This document shows positions 2,158-46,285 of a stretch of DNA of 64,000 bases, one piece after another (positions within the stretch are counted from its first letter, which is position 1; every line of letters begins with the position of its first letter). Origin of the DNA: Planctomycetota bacterium (lineage in GTDB: Bacteria > Planctomycetota > Phycisphaerae > UBA1845); the NCBI GenBank assembly GCA_016200265.1, contig JACQFE010000040.1:1-64000 (forward strand). Direction: 5' to 3'. The notes under the pieces were generated by a model, which saw only the letters and a program-made list of their open reading frames with translations, did not search any database and was not told the DNA's origin. Made by a program: the position numbers and the translations under genes.

Positions 2158-3327
2158 ATGCCTTCGAAAGCACGGTTTGTGAAGTTCAGGCCTTGGGTGT
2201 TGGCGTCAGTGGCGGCGATGTTGACCTGTCCCACCGCATTGCGGGCGGATTCATTCAATAGCTATCAACTTGTCGAGTCTTTTTTGTTGCCGGGCGGCGC
2301 GGGGCCGACGGATTCACTAGCCGATGGACGGTTGATGACCATCGTTGGCTCGACGATTTATATCGAGACCATGCCGAATGGCCGCACGTTCGTTTCCCAG
2401 GGCAACCTGCCGCAAGCGGATATCGCGTCATTCGGGGCGGCCTTCCTGCGAGTGTCGCCAGATGGCGCTAAGTTCGCGGTCGGCAACAACGGCGGTGCAT
2501 CGTTTTCGAATTTCCAAATCGGAATTTTTAACGTCAGCAACCTAACGGGCACATGGTTCACGGCAGCGCACTACGATGCGGCCTGGATTGATAACACGAA
2601 ACTTGCCATCACGGCCGGTGATTTTGGAAGCCCGGCGTTCGTGACGGTTCTGGATGTCAAAAGCCCGAATCCGAACGTCCCGGACAATCGCACGATCATC
2701 TCCAACATCGGTGGCGCGTCGGCGGGAATCGCATTCGACGCCGCGGGAAATCTGTATACCGGCAATGGATTTCAGGGTTCCGGTCCCAGCGGTACCGGTG
2801 CAACCAAAGAGTTTTCGCATTCCACGTGGCTGGCCGCGTACACGTCCGGACCGCACATCAATTTCGAACCGTCAGGCACGTCGATCGTCGATGTGCTTTC
2901 CGCGTCGCCGCTGGCCTTTGATGGTGATGGAAATCTCTTCATCGGAGGTGGCGATTTTTCTGCGAATGACATTGATTTTGTAGCGATCACAAGAGCCTCT
3001 GCAGTTAGTGCTGCGGTAAGCGGTGGCGGAGCGATCAATCCCGCCGATCCAAGCCAGCTTCGGCGACTCGATCCGGACACCTCCAATAATTCGAACTTCT
3101 ATTCCGTAAATACAAACCCCGTGCTCCACGAAGTGTATGTGCGCGATCTCAGTGGCGATCGCGTCTATGTGTATCTCGATACATCCTCGATTCCCACAAT
3201 TTCGCAATGGGGGGCCGCCGCTTTCGCACTCGGCGTCCTTTGCGCCGGCACGATCGTTTTGAAGGGTAGACAAGTCTTGGGTTGTCAGAGGGCGGCAGAT
3301 AATGCGTCTAATGCGGAGGCCGCATGA
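2158..3327 (+). CDS. Exported IPTL-CTERM protein, beta-propeller-like, first gene of the B12-switch operon
   Basis: A 389-residue protein. Residues 1-31 form a signal peptide (FRPWVLASVAAML...ALRA). The middle part has short repeats of the kind seen in NHL/YncE-like propellers (AGIAFDAAGNLYTGN, SPLAFDGDGNLFIGG). The C-terminus carries IPTISQWGAAAFALG, a hydrophobic helix and then a basic residue, which fits the IPTL-CTERM sorting signal. The start is supported by AGGAAGGAG at 2141-2149. As the gene is directly under a cobalamin riboswitch, a role in binding or acquiring cobamides at the cell surface is plausible. Bacteroidetes use a propeller lipoprotein (BtuG) for that task, but homology to BtuG is not shown here. 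The stop overlaps the next start by 4 bp. Confidence 0.82.
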   Translation: MPSKARFVKFRPWVLASVAAMLTCPTALRADSFNSYQLVESFLLPGGAGPTDSLADGRLMTIVGSTIYIETMPNGRTFVSQGNLPQADIASFGAAFLRVSPDGAKFAVGNNGGASFSNFQIGIFNVSNLTGTWFTAAHYDAAWIDNTKLAITAGDFGSPAFVTVLDVKSPNPNVPDNRTIISNIGGASAGIAFDAAGNLYTGNGFQGSGPSGTGATKEFSHSTWLAAYTSGPHINFEPSGTSIVDVLSASPLAFDGDGNLFIGGGDFSANDIDFVAITRASAVSAAVSGGGAINPADPSQLRRLDPDTSNNSNFYSVNTNPVLHEVYVRDLSGDRVYVYLDTSSIPTISQWGAAAFALGVLCAGTIVLKGRQVLGCQRAADNASNAEAA

Positions 3328-10063: not shown

Positions 10064-12856
10064 ATGCCGAAATCGCTTTACATCATTGACGGCCATTACC
10101 AGATCTATCGCGCGTTTTATGGCCTCTCGCAGCCGCTGATGAGTCCCTCCGGCGAGCCGACAAACGCGACGCATACCTTCTGCTCGATGCTGTTCAGTCT
10201 CATCAAGACGCGCAAGCCGGATTACCTCGCTATGGTGGCCGATGTCAGCGACGAGACGGTATTTCGACGCGATCTCGACCCAAATTACAAGGCCCATCGC
10301 GATCCCGCGCCGGAAGGCTTGCACATTCAGGCCGAGCGGATTTTCTCGATCGTGGAAGCCCTTCGGATTCCGGTTTTTCGCGTGCCGGGGATGGAGGCCG
10401 ACGACCTGATGGCCACGATCGCGGAAAAAATGCGTGACCAGGATATCGAAGTGTTCCTCGTCAGCCGCGACAAAGACCTCGATCAGCTTCTTACAGACCA
10501 CGTGCGGCTTTTCGATCCCGTCAAGCAGATCGTCATCGACCCCGCGACATTGTTCGAACAAAAAGGCTACACGCCAAAGCAAGCCGTCGAGATCCAGACG
10601 CTCATCGGCGATTCCACGGACAACATTCCCGGCGTCCCCGGCGTCGGCCCCAAGACCGCGGTCAAATTGATTGCTGAATACGGCAGCGCGGACGCTGTCA
10701 TCGCGAACGCGGAAAAGCAATCGGCCAAGCTCGCCGAAAAACTCAAGGGATTTCGGGATCAACTTCCCATCACGCGGCAGCTTGTAACGCTGCGCCGCGA
10801 CGTTCCCCTCGATTTTGATCTTCAGGCCTGCGCCATTGAGAATCTCAACGCTCCCAGTGCGATATCGATATTTCACATGCTCGGCTTCAGCAGGCTCGTG
10901 GATACATTGAACTCGCTGGTTTCCAATTCAGCCCCCAAACCGCGTACATCGCCCGCACCGGAGAAACAGGCCCAGACGACATTCGCATCGATCGTGGATA
11001 CTGAATTGCCGATCGAGAGAATCACTGCCGTAACCGAAATCGCAGTGGAAAAAAAGGCGCCGGCAAATTATGTCCTTGTCGACACTCCGGAAAAGCTGAA
11101 CGAATTCGCCATTCAGCTTCGTAACCAACCGGAATTCGCCTTTGACACCGAAACGACGGGCCTAAGCGCCGTCGATTCCGACATCGTCGGTCTTTCCTTT
11201 GCATGGAAACCGGGCGAGGCGTACTACTTACCGATTCGAGGCATGGGACCCACGCTCGCCGAATCGCTTGTCGTCCAAACTCTAAAGCCAGTTTTCGAAA
11301 ATGTTGCGATCGCCAAATCCGGCCAGAACATGAAGTTCGACGCGCTTGTCGTCCGACAGCTGGGAATCAAGGTTGCCAATATGGCCTTCGACACGCTGAT
11401 CGCCAGCTTTGTGCTCGATCCATCGGGCCGAAGTCATTCGCTCGACGCCCTCGCGAAGTCGCTGCTCAACCACGAGATGATTCCCATTACTGATCTGATC
11501 GGCAAAGGTCGAGACCAGATCACAATGGATCATGTCGACACTCGGCAGGTGTGCGAATATGCGGCCGAGGACGCCGACTATACCTGGCGATTAAAGGAGT
11601 TCTTCGAGCCGCAGATTCGCGGCAGCGAGGTCGAGGCGTTGTTTCGCGAGACGGAAATGCCGCTGGTCGAAGTGCTCGTCGAAATGGAAAACAACGGAGT
11701 TTGCCTGGATCGCTCAGTTCTTGCCGCGTTGGGAAACAAGATGGGCAATCGCCTTCTCGAGATTTCCCGACAGGTTCATCAGGCCGTCGGTCACTCGTTC
11801 AATCTCGATTCGCCGAAGCAGCTTGCCACGGTCCTTTTCGACGAGCTGGGTTTCGAAGTTGCCAGAACCACGAAGACGGGCCGCAGCACCGATGCCGAGA
11901 CGCTCGAGCAAATCGCATCGCAAACCGAGCATCCCGTGCCCCGATTGTTGCTTGAACATCGCGAACTTTCCAAGCTGAAAGGCACCTACGTCGATACATT
12001 GCCGACGATGATCAGCCGCAGGACCGGCCGCATTCATGCCGGCTTTCATCAAACCGGTGCAGTGACAGGCCGACTTTCATCAAGCGATCCGAATCTCCAG
12101 AACATTCCCATTCGCACCGATCTCGGCAAGCGAATCCGCGAGGCCTTCATCGCCTGCGACGAAGACCACGTTCTGCTCACCGCGGACTATTCGCAGATCG
12201 AATTGCGATTGCTGGCACATTTTTCGCAGGATGCGGCCTTGCTCGAAGCCTTTCGAACCGGACAGGACATTCATCGCGCCGTTGCGGCGCAGATCAACGG
12301 CGTCAAGCTGGAAGACGTCAATGACGCACAACGAAGCGCCGCCAAGGCCGTCAACTTCGGGATTATTTACGGCCAGTCGGCATTCGGCTTGTCGCGAGCC
12401 ATTGGCATCAGCAGAACCCAGGCCAAAGTATTCATTGAAACCTATTTTGCCCGCTACCCTGGAATCCGAAAATTCATCGACCGCTGCATCGCCGAAGCTC
12501 GCGAGAAGGGCTTCGCTCGAACGATTCTTGGCCGGCGACGACCGATCCCCGAATTGCTCTCGCGAAATCAAGGCCAGGTGGCGTTTGGCGAACGCATCGC
12601 CGTCAACACCGTCGTGCAGGGATCCGCCGCGGATCTCATCAAGCGGGCCATGATTGATATTCATCGCGAGCTGAAATCCGGCCAATACTCGGCCAAAATG
12701 CTGATCCAAGTCCACGATGAACTCGTGTTCGAAGTGCGAAAAATAAACTTGGACGCCGCCGTCGCAATGATCCGCGAACGGATGGAACACGCGCTTCCCC
12801 TTGATGTGCCGATTACGGTCGATCTGGGCTGGGGGCGCAACTGGGCGACGATCTGA
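10064..12856 (+). CDS. polA: DNA polymerase I
   Basis: A full-length 930-residue enzyme with all three activities. Residues 1-290 are the 5'-3' exonuclease (YIIDGHYQIYRAFYG, GMEADDLMATIA, SRDKDLDQLL, GDSTDNIPGVPGVG). The proofreading domain has its acidic residues: FDTETTG at about 362, NMKFDALV, and YAAEDADYTW. The polymerase domain shows SSSDPNLQNIPIRT, the catalytic ADYSQIELR at about 707, the O helix (AKAVNFGIIYGQS) and VHDELVFEV near 884. It replaces RNA primers and fills repair gaps. It stands alone and is followed by a convergent kinase gene. Confidence 0.97.
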   Translation: MPKSLYIIDGHYQIYRAFYGLSQPLMSPSGEPTNATHTFCSMLFSLIKTRKPDYLAMVADVSDETVFRRDLDPNYKAHRDPAPEGLHIQAERIFSIVEALRIPVFRVPGMEADDLMATIAEKMRDQDIEVFLVSRDKDLDQLLTDHVRLFDPVKQIVIDPATLFEQKGYTPKQAVEIQTLIGDSTDNIPGVPGVGPKTAVKLIAEYGSADAVIANAEKQSAKLAEKLKGFRDQLPITRQLVTLRRDVPLDFDLQACAIENLNAPSAISIFHMLGFSRLVDTLNSLVSNSAPKPRTSPAPEKQAQTTFASIVDTELPIERITAVTEIAVEKKAPANYVLVDTPEKLNEFAIQLRNQPEFAFDTETTGLSAVDSDIVGLSFAWKPGEAYYLPIRGMGPTLAESLVVQTLKPVFENVAIAKSGQNMKFDALVVRQLGIKVANMAFDTLIASFVLDPSGRSHSLDALAKSLLNHEMIPITDLIGKGRDQITMDHVDTRQVCEYAAEDADYTWRLKEFFEPQIRGSEVEALFRETEMPLVEVLVEMENNGVCLDRSVLAALGNKMGNRLLEISRQVHQAVGHSFNLDSPKQLATVLFDELGFEVARTTKTGRSTDAETLEQIASQTEHPVPRLLLEHRELSKLKGTYVDTLPTMISRRTGRIHAGFHQTGAVTGRLSSSDPNLQNIPIRTDLGKRIREAFIACDEDHVLLTADYSQIELRLLAHFSQDAALLEAFRTGQDIHRAVAAQINGVKLEDVNDAQRSAAKAVNFGIIYGQSAFGLSRAIGISRTQAKVFIETYFARYPGIRKFIDRCIAEAREKGFARTILGRRRPIPELLSRNQGQVAFGERIAVNTVVQGSAADLIKRAMIDIHRELKSGQYSAKMLIQVHDELVFEVRKINLDAAVAMIRERMEHALPLDVPITVDLGWGRNWATI

Positions 12857-38511: not shown

Positions 38512-39540
38512 ATGAAACGGAAACTATGGTTGATGGCCTTTGCCGGAGCGTCAGTAACGACGTGGGCGCTGGCCGAACCCCCCGCGCCCGCAAAGTCGGA
38601 CGCAAAGGGGGACACCGGGGTGGCGGCGATGATTGGCGACAAGCCGATCACCACCGCCGAACTCGATGCGAAAATTCTGAAGCAGAACATGAAGCTGGCC
38701 CAGCAGTTGTACGATGCCCGCAAGGCGGCATTGGATGACGCGATTCTGGACAAGGCACTGGGCGAAGAAGCCAAGGCCGCGAACACGTCCGTGGACCAAC
38801 TTCTCAAGAAGAAGGTCTCCGAGAAAGTCACTCCTCCCACGGATCCCGAAGTGGCCGCGTATTACAACGCGAACCAGGCCAAAATGCAGGGCAAGTCGTT
38901 GGAGGAAATGACTCCGCAGATCAAGAGCTTCCTCTCCACGCAAAGAGAGTCTGAAGCCAAGGTCAAGATTCTTGCGGAAATCAAAGCAAAAGCCAACGTG
39001 AAGGTCATGCTTGAAGTTCCCCGAGTTGAGGTTGCGATCGCCCCGAATGCCGCCTCCAACGGGCCCAAGGACGCGAAGGTGACGATCGTCGAGTTTTCGG
39101 ATTTTCAGTGACCGTTCTGCTCTCGGGTCGGTCCGACCCTTAAGCAAATTCACGACGCCTACGGCGATAAGGTTCGAGTCGTATTCAGCGAGTTTCCCCT
39201 CGGTATGCATCAGCGGGCCAACCCAGCCGCGGAAGCCGCCGAATGTGCCAACGAACAAGGTAAGTTCTGGGAATATCACGACAAGCTGTTCGCCAACCAG
39301 CAAAAGCTTGCCGACGAAGATTTCAACAAATACGCCGAAGAAATCGGCTTGAACGTCGAGCAATTCAAGGCATGCTACAGCACCGGGAAAACCAAGGCCG
39401 CGATTCAGAAAATGGTCGCCGACGGCAGCAAAGCCGGCGTCACGGGCACGCCCGCGTTCTTCATCAACGGCCGATTCCTTTCCGGAGCGCAGCCGTTCGA
39501 ATCGTTCAAGACCATGATCGACGAGGAGCTTTCTCGGTAG
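38512..39540 (+). CDS. Exported DsbA-like thioredoxin-fold selenoprotein (UPFC), read through UGA at codon 200
   Basis: The 342-residue product has one in-frame TGA, at 39109-39111, exactly where the neighbouring paralogue has the first cysteine of CPFC; the frame continues for 142 sense codons to TAG. Residues 1-22 form a signal peptide. Residues ~35-170 form a helical SurA/PpiC-N-like chaperone part (MIGDKPITTAELDAKILKQN, EVAAYYNANQ). Residues ~180-342 are a DsbA-like (Thioredoxin_4) domain with UPFCSR, EFPLGMHQRANPAAEAAECA and the cis-proline TGTPAFF. It would act on disulfides in the periplasm. Ribosome-binding GGAG lies 12 nt before the ATG. Alternatives are a nonsense mutation or sequencing error at one base. 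Confidence 0.85.
39109..39139 (+). promoter_or_regulatory. Candidate bacterial SECIS element at the in-frame UGA
   Basis: UGA at 39109-39111; 13 nt later a perfect 6-bp stem GGGTCG (39125-39130) with CGACCC (39134-39139) around GTC. Opening the top pair gives a GGUCC pentaloop. GGUC occupies nt 19-22 after the UGA, the same offset as the apical GGUC of E. coli fdhF as I remember that sequence. The distance and the guanine at the loop start fit the published bacterial SECIS model. Confidence 0.75.
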
Positions 39541-39584
39541 CCGCATGGACGGCTCGACAAGCACCAATTTCAACTGAAAAAACA

Positions 39585-39613
39585 CCGGGCGCTATTGAGG
39601 GGCCCGGTTTTTT
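39585..39613 (+). terminator. Intrinsic terminator after the selenoprotein gene
   Basis: CCGGGC (39585-39590) pairs with GCCCGG (39602-39607), followed by six T. It lies 45 bp after the TAG at 39540, not after the internal UGA, which supports a gene extending to 39540. A run of A before the stem makes it potentially bidirectional. Confidence 0.75.
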
Positions 39614-39755
39614 CATGCGCATCGCCAAGACAATGGAGAATGGTCGATTGGAACTTGTTTGGCGTGTTACATGACGGTTTCGGTAGCGACCTTCACGGTT
39701 CGCTAGGATTGCTTAGAATCACCGACGATTCATAACAAAAAAGGAGTGTACGAAA

Positions 39756-40769
39756 ATGACGAAGCGAATGCTTGGATTGTTCATTGTGGCCGGCGCCGGC
39801 ATGTTGTGTTCAACATGGGCGTTGGCGGATGCAAAGAGCGACAAAGGTGTCGCGGCGACGATTGGCGATAAGCCCGTCACGCTCGAAGAGCTCGATGTGA
39901 AGATCCTGAAGGGCAATATGAAGCTTGCACAGCAGTTGTATGACGCTCGCAAAGCCGCGTTGGACGAGTTGATTCTTGAAAAGGCGCTTGGTGACGAATC
40001 CAAGGCCGCAGGGACTACGACGGATCAACTCATGAAGAAGAAGATCCAGGAAAAGGTCACCCCGCCGACCGATGCCGAAGTGGAAGCATACTTCAACGCC
40101 AATCAAGGCCGCATGCAGGGTAAGCCACTCACCGAAATGGCTCCGCAAATCAAGAGCATGCTCTCATCGCAAAAGGAAGCGGATGTGAAGGGCAAGCTTC
40201 TGACTGAACTCAAGAGCAAGGCCAATGTCAAGGTCATGCTCGAAGTTCCGCGAATTGAAGTGGCCGTGGGTCCGACGGACCCGTCGAAGGGGCCCAAGGA
40301 TGCCAGGGTCACCGTGATTGAATTTTCCGACTTCCAATGCCCATTCTGCTCTCGCGGCGCAGCGACTTTCAAGCAGATTCATGAAGTGTACGGCGACAAG
40401 GTCCGCATCGTTTTCCGTGAGTTCCCCTTGGGTATGCACCAGCGGGCACAGCCGGCCGCCGAGGCCGCCGAGTGCGCCAATGAGCAGGGCAAGTTCTGGG
40501 AATATCACGACAAGCTCTTCGGCAACCAGCAGAAGCTCGCGGACGAGGATTTCAACAAGTATGCCGAAGAAGTCGGCTTGAACGTCGAGCAATTCAAGGC
40601 ATGCTACAGCACCGGCAAATTCAAGGCCGATGTTCAGAAAGATGTGGCTGAAGGCTCCAAGGCTGGTGTTACTGGGACGCCGGCGTTCTTCGTCAACGGA
40701 CGATTTGTGTCCGGCGCCCAACCGCTCGAGACGTTTAAGACGATGATCGACGAAGAGCTTTCTCGGTAA
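39756..40769 (+). CDS. Exported DsbA-like thioredoxin-fold protein, cysteine form (CPFC)
   Basis: A 337-residue tandem paralogue of the preceding gene with the same order: signal peptide (1-24), helical SurA-N-like part (ATIGDKPVTLEELDVKILKG, EVEAYFNANQGRMQG), then the DsbA-like domain with FSDFQCPFCSR, EFPLGMHQRAQPAAEAAECA and TGTPAFFVNG. Ribosome-binding AAGGAG lies 9 nt upstream. It has its own terminator. It may be the selenium-independent counterpart, giving the cell both forms. Confidence 0.9.
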   Translation: MTKRMLGLFIVAGAGMLCSTWALADAKSDKGVAATIGDKPVTLEELDVKILKGNMKLAQQLYDARKAALDELILEKALGDESKAAGTTTDQLMKKKIQEKVTPPTDAEVEAYFNANQGRMQGKPLTEMAPQIKSMLSSQKEADVKGKLLTELKSKANVKVMLEVPRIEVAVGPTDPSKGPKDARVTVIEFSDFQCPFCSRGAATFKQIHEVYGDKVRIVFREFPLGMHQRAQPAAEAAECANEQGKFWEYHDKLFGNQQKLADEDFNKYAEEVGLNVEQFKACYSTGKFKADVQKDVAEGSKAGVTGTPAFFVNGRFVSGAQPLETFKTMIDEELSR

Positions 40770-43612: not shown

Positions 43613-43858
43613 TCAATGGGTCCGTGGCCGTAATTGCAGTCGCTTTGGAGCACCAAGTCAAGGTCGAACCAGTCCTCGGTGGATGTACCTTGATGAGGTT
43701 ATGGAACCGAGAATCGGCTTGCTTCCACAAAGGATTGTCAGGTATACTTGCGAGTGCCGGAAGATGGCAGTTCCCTGCACGCCGGAACAGCGTGTCAAGC
43801 AGGCACGCCCAACAATTCCCGTCAGACCCGGCATCAGACGGGATTCAGGAGGAGTCAG

Positions 43859-46285
43859 ATGCAGACTGTACGCACTGTGAGCACACATAACTCAGCTTCT
43901 TCTCATGCCTTTGGAATTGATGAGCCGGGAGGTGAATCGGCCCACACTTCGATATGCTTGCCGCGCTTGAAATGGTTGTCCGGGCCGACGGCGTGTTGGC
44001 TCATCGGTCTCTCGGTTGCCTATTTCGGGTTCGCGCGCAACGCAGTCGGTGCGGAGCCGACGCCCAGTCGAACTGAGACCGTTGACGGCGTTTTGGCGAC
44101 TGGAACTGTCGAGGACATGCGGTTTTACGATGCGTTCTTCCGCGGTGCGGTGGTTCAAGTCGTTCCGCCGAAGATGCCGGCGCCTACGTCCCAGGCCATC
44201 GATGAGCAAGGCCGCGTCGTGGCGTCGGCGGCGATGGCAGCACCGGGAGTACCCGCTCGCCCCACGGAAACAGGTAATGATGGTCCAGTTCAAGCGGCCC
44301 CGGGTTTTCCCCAGCCGCTCGCCCCGCCGTTGCAATCAACCTTCGGCGCCGTGCTGGATGACGATACGAACATCCCGCCCGACACTGTGGGTGCCGTAGG
44401 CCCGAATCATCTCGTGGTGCTGATTAATACCGGGTTCACCGTGCAGAACCGCTTAGGCGTTGTGGTCTCGCCGCAAGTATCGCTTTCCGCTTTTTGGAGC
44501 GCGCTGGGAACCGCCGCAGGACAGCCGGCGAGCGTTCCGTTCGATCCACGCGTGTTTTACGATCAGTACGCGGGACGATGGGTAGCGGCGAGTCTCGGGA
44601 ATCCTCAACAGCGCGACGGCACGAACAACGCCTGGTTGTTGGTGGCGATCTCCCAAACCAACGATCCCACAGGAACTTGGAACTTTTACGCCATTCACGC
44701 GAACAATGCGCCCACACATACGACGGACTGGGCCGACTTCACGGAAATGGGAGTCGATCCGAACAACGTCATTGTGACCGTTAACATGTTCAATACGGTG
44801 GGCAATTTCGTGCATGCCGACGTATGGATCATCAACAAAGCCTCGATGATCGCCGGACCCGGGCCGCTGGTTCAAGGCACTGATTATGCGCTCATCCACA
44901 ATCCCTGCGGGACCGGCGGCTTTTCCTATGCTCCGGTGCTGACGTTTGGGCAGACGCCCGGCACGGCCGCAAGCTATCTCGTCAACCCTTTCTGGATTGA
45001 CAACGCCACGCAAACTCGCCGCTTCTTCCGTGTGAATAAGATCACCGGGACCGGAGCGAGCGCGGTACTCGCCTGCAACGGCGGCAACGACTTCATCGAA
45101 GTGGCCAAATACAACTTCAACATGCTCGACGCCCCGCAGTCTTCGTGTGCCACGGGAATTGCCAGCAACGACTCGCGCCTGAGTATCGGCACGCTTCGAA
45201 ATGGACATATTTTCATCACCCATGCCGTCGGATCCGGGGCGGGCACACCGGCCATTCCTCCCAGCAAACCGGAAGTCGCATGGTACGAGATCAATCCTGC
45301 AACGGCCGGTGCATTTCCGGGTGGTGCGCCGGTTCAGCAAGGCCGGGTTTCCGATCCGAATCTGTATTACATTTTTCCATCGATCGCAGTGAACGCGAAC
45401 GGAGAAGTGGCCCTCGGATTCAGCGGATCGAGTTCCAGCACGTTCGCAGGTGCGTATTACACCGCGCATTGCGCCGGCGGCGCCGCAGGCACAATGCAAA
45501 CCGTGGCACAGCTCAAGGCGGGCGTGGGGCCGTATCTGAAGACTTTCGGCGGAACGGAGAACCGCTGGGGTGACTACAGCGCGACGGCGATCGACCCGCT
45601 CGATGACTCTTCGTTTTGGACGCTCCAGGAATATGCGGCAGTGCAGTTCTCCGGCGGCGGGGGAACCTGTACGCTGGATTTCGGACGATGGGGTACGTGG
45701 TGGGGCAGCTTCACCTGCTGCCCGAGTGCGGCCGCGCCTTTCCCGCAAGCACCTTTCGTCGTCAAGAATCGATACATCTCCATCGTTCCTGGCAACGCCG
45801 GGCTGAGCGCCGCGATCCGCGTGAAACTCGTGAGCAGCAACACATGCCCGATTTCCGTCGGTGACATCGGTTGGGTCGGCCTACCAAATGCCAATGGAGA
45901 CGCGCTCTTGGAACCCGCTCCATTCTATATGGATTGGTCTGCGTTCCCAGTGGTTCACATTGGCGATGATATGATCTTTCCCGACTCAATCTATGAAATT
46001 CAAATGATCGCTCAGACCTGCGATGTCGGCAGCGAAGGGAACTTCTCAGTGTCCCTCAGCCTCCCGACGATGTCTTTCTGGGGCAACGTCGTCGGCAGCG
46101 ACGAGCCGCCGAACATCACGGACGTGGCCCGCACGGTGGACAATTTCAAGCTCGTTCCCGGTGCGCCGACCACGGAAGAATGCGATCTTGTTCCCGGGGT
46201 TCCTGATCGAACCGTGAATATCTCGGACGTGGCCGCAACGGTGGATGGGTTTAAGGGCCTTCCGTTTCCGTTCCCGTGCCCGTGA
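43859..46285 (+). CDS. Large exported protein with tandem dockerin-like repeats
   Basis: An 808-residue protein from the ATG at 43859, supported by AGGAGGAG 8 nt upstream; a start at 43748 is also open. A hydrophobic segment at about 42-60 (TACWLIGLSVAYFGFA) is an internal signal anchor or late signal peptide. The central part has propeller-like blocks (DTVGAVGPNHLVVLIN, FYDQYAGRWVAASLGNP, DWADFTEMGVDPNNVIVTVN), as in many secreted planctomycete proteins. The tail carries two similar repeats, PPNITDVARTVDNFK and RTVNISDVAATVDGFK, of dockerin type I-like form. Its role is unknown. Confidence 0.78.
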   Translation: MQTVRTVSTHNSASSHAFGIDEPGGESAHTSICLPRLKWLSGPTACWLIGLSVAYFGFARNAVGAEPTPSRTETVDGVLATGTVEDMRFYDAFFRGAVVQVVPPKMPAPTSQAIDEQGRVVASAAMAAPGVPARPTETGNDGPVQAAPGFPQPLAPPLQSTFGAVLDDDTNIPPDTVGAVGPNHLVVLINTGFTVQNRLGVVVSPQVSLSAFWSALGTAAGQPASVPFDPRVFYDQYAGRWVAASLGNPQQRDGTNNAWLLVAISQTNDPTGTWNFYAIHANNAPTHTTDWADFTEMGVDPNNVIVTVNMFNTVGNFVHADVWIINKASMIAGPGPLVQGTDYALIHNPCGTGGFSYAPVLTFGQTPGTAASYLVNPFWIDNATQTRRFFRVNKITGTGASAVLACNGGNDFIEVAKYNFNMLDAPQSSCATGIASNDSRLSIGTLRNGHIFITHAVGSGAGTPAIPPSKPEVAWYEINPATAGAFPGGAPVQQGRVSDPNLYYIFPSIAVNANGEVALGFSGSSSSTFAGAYYTAHCAGGAAGTMQTVAQLKAGVGPYLKTFGGTENRWGDYSATAIDPLDDSSFWTLQEYAAVQFSGGGGTCTLDFGRWGTWWGSFTCCPSAAAPFPQAPFVVKNRYISIVPGNAGLSAAIRVKLVSSNTCPISVGDIGWVGLPNANGDALLEPAPFYMDWSAFPVVHIGDDMIFPDSIYEIQMIAQTCDVGSEGNFSVSLSLPTMSFWGNVVGSDEPPNITDVARTVDNFKLVPGAPTTEECDLVPGVPDRTVNISDVAATVDGFKGLPFPFPCP

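Follow-up and report, generated by a model that had tools for sequence, protein, structure and literature searches.

The closest described counterparts of the protein analysed here are the DsbA-like selenoproteins with a UxxC motif. Nine such sequences are reported in the Sargasso Sea set (PMC1088965) and others in the Global Ocean Sampling data (PMC2398784), so that the statement in an earlier, sequence-only reading of this locus that DsbA-like selenoproteins had been reported in metagenome surveys is borne out by the portions of these papers that deal with them. For bacterial genomes, the table portion of PMC1794560 has four DsbA-like and two DsbG-like rows, and the list in the same paper includes a DsbA-like selenoprotein of Anaeromyxobacter dehalogenans. 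In their relevant sections, two reviews cover the DsbA-like and DsbG-like UxxC selenoproteins (PMC9312934, PMC13188914), and parts of PMC4807772 deal with the selenoproteins that other planctomycetes have. As far as the descriptions cited here extend, the published DsbA-like UxxC proteins (PF01323; PMC1088965, PMC2398784, PMC13188914) have selenocysteine (Sec, U) in the first position of the motif and a bacterial SECIS element with a G in the apical loop, and both features recur at the locus described below.

The locus lies in a window of 64,000 nucleotides (the whole stretch of DNA that was analysed). This window corresponds to contig C52 in a 4.56 Mb draft genome that is 94.39% complete. The features of interest are collected in Table 1. 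The gene is a frame of 343 codons whose sole interruption is a TGA at codon 200, followed by 142 sense codons and a TAG, and the TGA aligns with the first Cys of the CPFC motif in the tandem paralogue. The frame and the paralogue alignment agree with the sequence-only reading on each of these points, and the single-TGA frame with its Cys-aligned codon 200 is confirmed as a real observation. The pattern is more than chance because seven genomes have a single TGA at codon 200 and dN/dS beyond it is 0.08-0.23 in the 8 pairs chosen. UGA is otherwise a normal stop here: it ends polA (10064-12856), as had been claimed in arguing that general reassignment is unlikely, and, polA included, it ends 20 of the 31 long non-overlapping open reading frames (ORFs) of the window, a set that was compiled mechanically and includes at least one antisense ORF (38551-39585) that we do not take to be a gene. 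This antisense ORF was rejected because the sense frame shows a conserved family and a dN/dS well below 1. The terminator previously noted after the TAG is recovered as a hairpin followed by a T run (-21.6 kcal/mol, z -4.4, with 0 of 200 shuffles as good); it is absent from the list produced by a consensus terminator scan, which probably missed it because of its loop. Among plasmid records, 3073 match, every one of them below 60% identity, and a PHROGs search gave one weak, unnamed match only.

Table 1. Features of the Sec locus and its surroundings, in window coordinates
Feature	Position	Strand	Basis
Predicted Sec-containing DsbA-like protein gene, 342 residues with U200, stop TAG	38512..39540	+	TGA translated as U
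Signal-peptide-like N-terminus, residues 1-21	38512..38574	+	By eye; low model confidence there
Helical N-terminal arm, SurA-like, residues 37-160	38620..38991	+	AlphaFold model; PF13624
DsbA-like thioredoxin-fold domain, residues 183-338, with UPFC and T313-P314	39058..39525	+	PF13462/PF01323; Foldseek
In-frame TGA, predicted to be read as selenocysteine U200	39109..39111	+	Aligned with Cys in homologues
Putative resolving cysteine codon C203 in UPFC	39118..39120	+	Translation, alignment
Bacterial SECIS-type hairpin	39118..39146	+	Folds, pair counts, Sec versus Cys sites
Hairpin lower stem	39118-39121 with 39143-39146	+	Folds
Hairpin upper stem; loop GUC	39125-39130 with 39134-39139; loop 39131-39133	+	Folds
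C245	39244..39246	+	Invariant in 44 aligned homologues
C288	39373..39375	+	Invariant in 44 aligned homologues
Intrinsic-terminator-like hairpin and T run	39575..39615	+	After TAG; fold energy versus shuffles
Tandem Cys paralogue, 337 residues, FQCPFC in place of the Sec motif	39756..40769	+	Translation, alignment, Pfam

The genome that contains the window has all the Sec genes that had been proposed as a check, with 563.6 bits for selA (cut-off 267.9), 388.8 bits for selB together with its in-frame neighbour (cut-off 242.25), 378.5 bits for selD (cut-off 125) and 64.2 bits for a tRNA-Sec with the anticodon TCA (gathering score 47). The combination of SelA, SelB, SelD and tRNA-Sec by which bacterial selenoprotein synthesis is recognized is thus found in one genome. 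selD was searched in this genome only. Among the seven genomes that carry the Sec gene, selB is found in all seven, selA in six (not in G002) and a tRNA-Sec above the cut-off in six (not in G020); G002 and G020 are drafts, and each has the other two of these three genes. selA is also present in 52 of 60 relatives and is therefore no marker of the carriers. The SelD gene (L010 from position 1480, G000:C22) has an in-frame TGA of its own, within CAGUAGK and followed by a hairpin, so that SelD is probably a selenoprotein too, which is a known situation.

Homologues with one in-frame TGA, always at codon 200, are encoded in 7 of the 36 genomes of the same family within a sample of 60 genomes, the own genome being included in all three counts; all seven carriers belong to this family and all are draft assemblies. 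The other six Sec homologues are 51-60% identical to the window protein and have no further internal stop. A class-wide draw of 397 genomes (E<=1e-45) returned the same seven plus one distant relative without the stop. A phylum-wide draw of 392 genomes gave 11 matches, with TGA only in the window's own gene, the six other carriers not being among these 11. Downstream of the UGA, dN/dS is 0.08-0.23 in 8 pairs chosen by hand out of 36 possible, and between the UGA and the ATG at 39205 (residues 201-231) 7 of 31 residues are invariant among nine rows. Counting U as C, the Cys at the codon 200 position is invariant in 44 of 44 aligned rows, as are the CxxC (UxxC) motif and the TP loop; the position alternates between U and C among homologues, the second check that had been proposed. 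The relatives search covered 80 loci out of 574 confirmed relatives and favours Cys forms because one search pattern ends in FQC; a similar motif filter found no site in 7 of the 80 loci (L059, L084, L091, L105, L111, L125, L126).

The hairpin that follows the UGA has five base pairs and a closing pair, the loop G-GUC-C and a folding energy of -13.6 kcal/mol, and its loop lies 18-19 nt from the UGA, according to the treatment of the closing G-C as part of the loop or of the stem. According to the Fig. 2 legend of PMC13188914, the bSECIS model has an upper stem of 4-16 bp, a loop of 3-9 nt whose first two positions include a G (N1-G-[G/U]-N-N2), a distance of 16-37 nt from the UGA and a minimum free energy (MFE) of -7.5 or lower; the window hairpin agrees with all four constraints of that legend. 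Within the family, every one of the seven sites forms all six upper pairs, and a single compensatory change turns GC into AU. The initial comparison gave six Watson-Crick pairs at 9 of 9 Sec sites versus 1 of 89 Cys sites; for the wider, filtered set the counts were 17 of 21 for Sec and 3 of 116 for Cys, the Fisher values for these comparisons not being independent-sample probabilities because the compared sites are related. The wider set, to which the best 30 loci among the matches listed were added, was filtered for [DE][FYW][QE][UC]P[FY]C followed by at least 60 open residues and no U in the next 90, with TP[AST] required later and identical stretches counted once; L181, which has UPHC and the hairpin, stands outside the 21 Sec sites counted. 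The four exceptional Sec sites keep five pairs (three with G-U at one pair, one with A opposite C), and the hairpin energies over the 21 sites range from -8.5 to -21.5.

The covariation signal rests on a single pair of columns. AU replaces GC on both sides of one pair at 4 of the 21 Sec sites; the number of double-change cells is reached by 3 of 500 shuffles, and the count of pairs changed on both sides, namely one, by 414 of 500. For the family sites, the covariation seen is matched in 63 of 500 shuffles. The segment after the UGA that encodes RVGPT favours the stem by itself: when the seven sites are recoded synonymously, 12-18% of the draws form all six pairs and 0.2-8% attain the observed energy or a lower one. 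Compared with shuffles, the window hairpin has a modest z (-0.8 to -2.4), the 60-nt fold in G015 is no better than the shuffles (114 of 200 as good), and a search of Rfam near the UGA gave no match at E<=10. When the own genome was scanned, with zero mismatch allowed, for a UGA followed by this hairpin, the site described here was the sole match, and the reversed control gave 0. The Cys copy in genome G012, the sole one among the first 89 Cys sites to encode RVGxT, forms five of the six pairs, and this near-hairpin could be either an old SECIS remnant or an effect of the protein sequence.

The predicted protein combines an N-terminal arm with a DsbA-like domain. Given the signal-peptide-like character of its first 21 residues, it is probably exported. 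In the AlphaFold model (mean pLDDT 90.6, pTM 0.80, with Sec entered as Cys), residues 37-160 are mostly helical. The match of this part to SurA_N_3 (PF13624) scores 18.5 bits, below the curated cut-off of 27.2, and 9 of 9 relatives in set A2 match the same profile at E<=1, the best at 3.1e-8; the SurA-like helical part proposed in the sequence-only reading is thus weak in this protein itself and better supported in its relatives. A SurA/PpiC rotamase domain was not recovered, PF13145 reaching only E 0.12 here and 0.0039 in the best of the 8 matching A2 members. The C-terminal domain is assigned with 117 bits for PF13462 (gathering score 23.2) and 87.1 bits for PF01323 (gathering score 25.6), and the Foldseek matches of the model (3gyk, 4pwp/4pwo, 3eu3) have DsbA-type oxidoreductases as the best solved structures. 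The solved relatives include the Silicibacter oxidoreductase 3gyk, C. diphtheriae DsbA/TsdA, BdbD and ScsC. P314 is presumably the cis-Pro. C245 and C288 could plausibly form a second disulfide, and, by eye, they seem to be absent from the Sec domains of the wider set that lie outside the family.

Because the TGA is aligned with Cys, the Sec machinery is encoded in the genome, the arrangement is conserved in seven genomes, coding constraint continues beyond the UGA and a bSECIS-type hairpin follows it, 38512-39540 very probably encodes a selenoprotein in which the UGA at codon 200 is predicted to specify selenocysteine; the machinery, the U/C alternation and the hairpin all support the candidate put forward in the sequence-only reading. 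A broken gene, in which the Cys codon of one duplicate had recently suffered a nonsense change or was misread in sequencing, would involve a single base (TGC versus TGA) and would adjoin an intact Cys paralogue, but the same TGA occupies the same codon in six more genomes whose proteins are only 51-60% identical, no other internal stop is present, the dN/dS after the UGA in the 8 chosen pairs remains low, and the genome has the Sec machinery, so that such decay or error is highly improbable. We give equally little credence to a UGA that acts as a true stop, in which case the SurA-like part would be a protein by itself and a thioredoxin-like fragment would be translated from its own start. An in-frame ORF of 111 residues does start after the UGA (ATG 39205, for example), yet this fragment would come without the active-site motif, the residues between the UGA and that ATG are also conserved, and the Cys relatives are one continuous protein. 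Reading of the UGA as another residue, such as Trp, through general reassignment or leaky read-through, is likewise very hard to credit: we found no evidence here in its support, and against it stand the many ORFs of the window that UGA terminates, polA among them, the presence of a Sec-type tRNA with the TCA anticodon and the alignment of the codon with an invariant Cys.

For the selenoprotein, we envisage that SelB and tRNA-Sec would decode the UGA at codon 200 during translation, directed by the hairpin within the coding sequence, the upper stem of which starts 13 nt after the UGA. The product would be exported to the periplasm, and at its U-P-F-C site Sec200 would attack and Cys203 resolve. 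The DsbA-like domain would make or exchange disulfides in exported proteins, the SurA-like arm may bind client proteins or hold subunits together, and the tandem Cys copy would do the same kind of job without selenium. The fold and the motif accordingly considered, a thiol-disulfide oxidoreductase acting on exported proteins is the function that we infer. A selenoprotein that is a reductase or peroxidase-like, rather than an enzyme of disulfide formation or exchange, appears unlikely, although less so than any of the alternatives to Sec insertion: Sec often serves peroxide reduction or repair, but the sequence and fold matches are of the DsbA, BdbD and ScsC type, with which the UPFC and TP motifs also agree.

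The tandem Cys paralogue is 77% identical to the Sec copy and has TGC (40338-40340) at the equivalent of codon 200. Tandem Sec/Cys pairs occur in two genomes, the own genome and G012. In a tree of 44 proteins, each of the two Cys copies groups with the Sec copy from its own genome, and both pairs sit inside one clade with other Sec forms, an arrangement that needs three changes, either one gain and two losses of Sec or three gains. Separate trees of the N-terminal and C-terminal parts keep both tandem pairs and are poorly resolved, each having stars on 2 of its 12 inner branches. We lean to a single gain because of the shared hairpin and the near-hairpin in the G012 Cys copy. The pairs themselves could have originated by two duplications or, alternatively, by gene conversion between old tandem copies. 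In the G012 pair (L023), Sec-Cys dS is 0.33 before the UGA and 0.84 after it, and this unevenness along the gene suggests at least some gene conversion, as if on the N-terminal half. A scenario that we offer tentatively, as possible but short of probable, is a chaperone-oxidoreductase fusion of one planctomycete family, with Sec ancestral to the clade and duplicates that turned to Cys at least twice and were kept in tandem, providing a selenium-dependent and a selenium-free version of one periplasmic enzyme, either to fall back on under selenium scarcity or to divide the substrates between them.

The predicted gene and its relatives have several implications. With this locus, the Sec enzymes inferred for the folding of exported proteins would gain a DsbA-like member that bears an arm. 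Adjacent Sec and Cys twins in two genomes offer a natural comparison of what the enzyme gains from selenium, and the near-identical hairpin shared by Sec sites in two distantly related groups of bacteria is a compact set of SECIS elements for tests. If annotation always treats UGA as a terminator, this gene is truncated and its catalytic half is lost, and such misannotation is described as near universal in the relevant part of PMC1088965.

Elsewhere in the window, a cobalamin riboswitch (RF00174, 98.9 bits; 1755-1975, +) lies just before an ORF (2158-3327) that has no Pfam match at E<=0.001; an Rfam search over the whole window found this riboswitch only. Another ORF, of 845 residues (43748-46285, +), also has no Pfam match at E<=0.001.

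Among curated families, the best match of the window protein is NF041057, the Rcas_1661 thioredoxin-like (seleno)lipoprotein family, which aligns with residues 138-338 at 123.6 bits, below the curated cut-off of 190; 9 of 9 A2 members match it as well. The family is listed as a DsbG-like protein with UxxC in the portion of PMC13188914 that covers it. Its members are lipoproteins per NCBI, whereas the window protein has the SurA-like arm. The available descriptions of the published DsbA-like UxxC proteins mention no SurA-like arm, and the main text of PMC13188914 contains 0 occurrences of 'SurA'; going by these descriptions, the window protein would differ from them in its arm.

Among the matches listed, DsbA-like Sec proteins are also encoded in a Myxococcales metagenome-assembled genome (MAG) and its class (L095, L170, L171, L175, L177, L178, L181, L185, L186, L188, L190, L191). 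Like the window protein, they have UPFC, UPYC or UPHC, RVGPTL or KVGPTL, and nearly the same hairpin. Unlike the SurA-like arm here, the N-terminal parts of L177 and L191, the two tested, have no Pfam match at E<=1, and L095, L177 and L188 differ from the window protein in having two Sec domains per chain. In these three, UPFC occurs twice, and an in-frame TGA and a copy of the hairpin belong to each domain separately. The L095 protein, from a record named Myxococcales, scores 196.9 bits against NF041057, above the cut-off of 190, and its genome (G755) has selB and tRNA-Sec. Within the G755 class, L170, L171, L175, L178, L181, L185, L186, L190 and L191 have one in-frame TGA and a near-identical SECIS; L186 has UPFC and CPFC sites in one locus, and L181 has UPHC.

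Full-length relatives with Cys where the window protein has Sec come from MAGs that are labelled Acidobacteria, Myxococcales, Bacteriovoracaceae, Oligoflexia and others and are 33-46% identical to it over most of the length; they comprise 35 rows of alignment A4, among the matches listed, and their layout is assigned by alignment, not by Pfam. The catalytic domain is also alike in sequence and fold to those of ScsC (Proteus mirabilis, Caulobacter), BdbD and C. diphtheriae DsbA/TsdA. These are Cys enzymes with other N-terminal parts, and ScsC also has an N-terminal arm. In titles and abstracts of the open-licence literature, we found no published description of a Sec form of the layout that joins a SurA-like arm to a DsbA-like domain, and no account of this protein in the literature on Phycisphaerae or Planctomycetota. 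The suggestion that this is a form not previously described therefore stands for the Sec version of the layout and does not extend to DsbA-/DsbG-like UxxC proteins as such, which are published, or to the full-length Cys relatives, which are common. The window protein is new by layout and lineage, and the kind of selenoprotein to which it belongs, DsbA-/DsbG-like UxxC, is already known.
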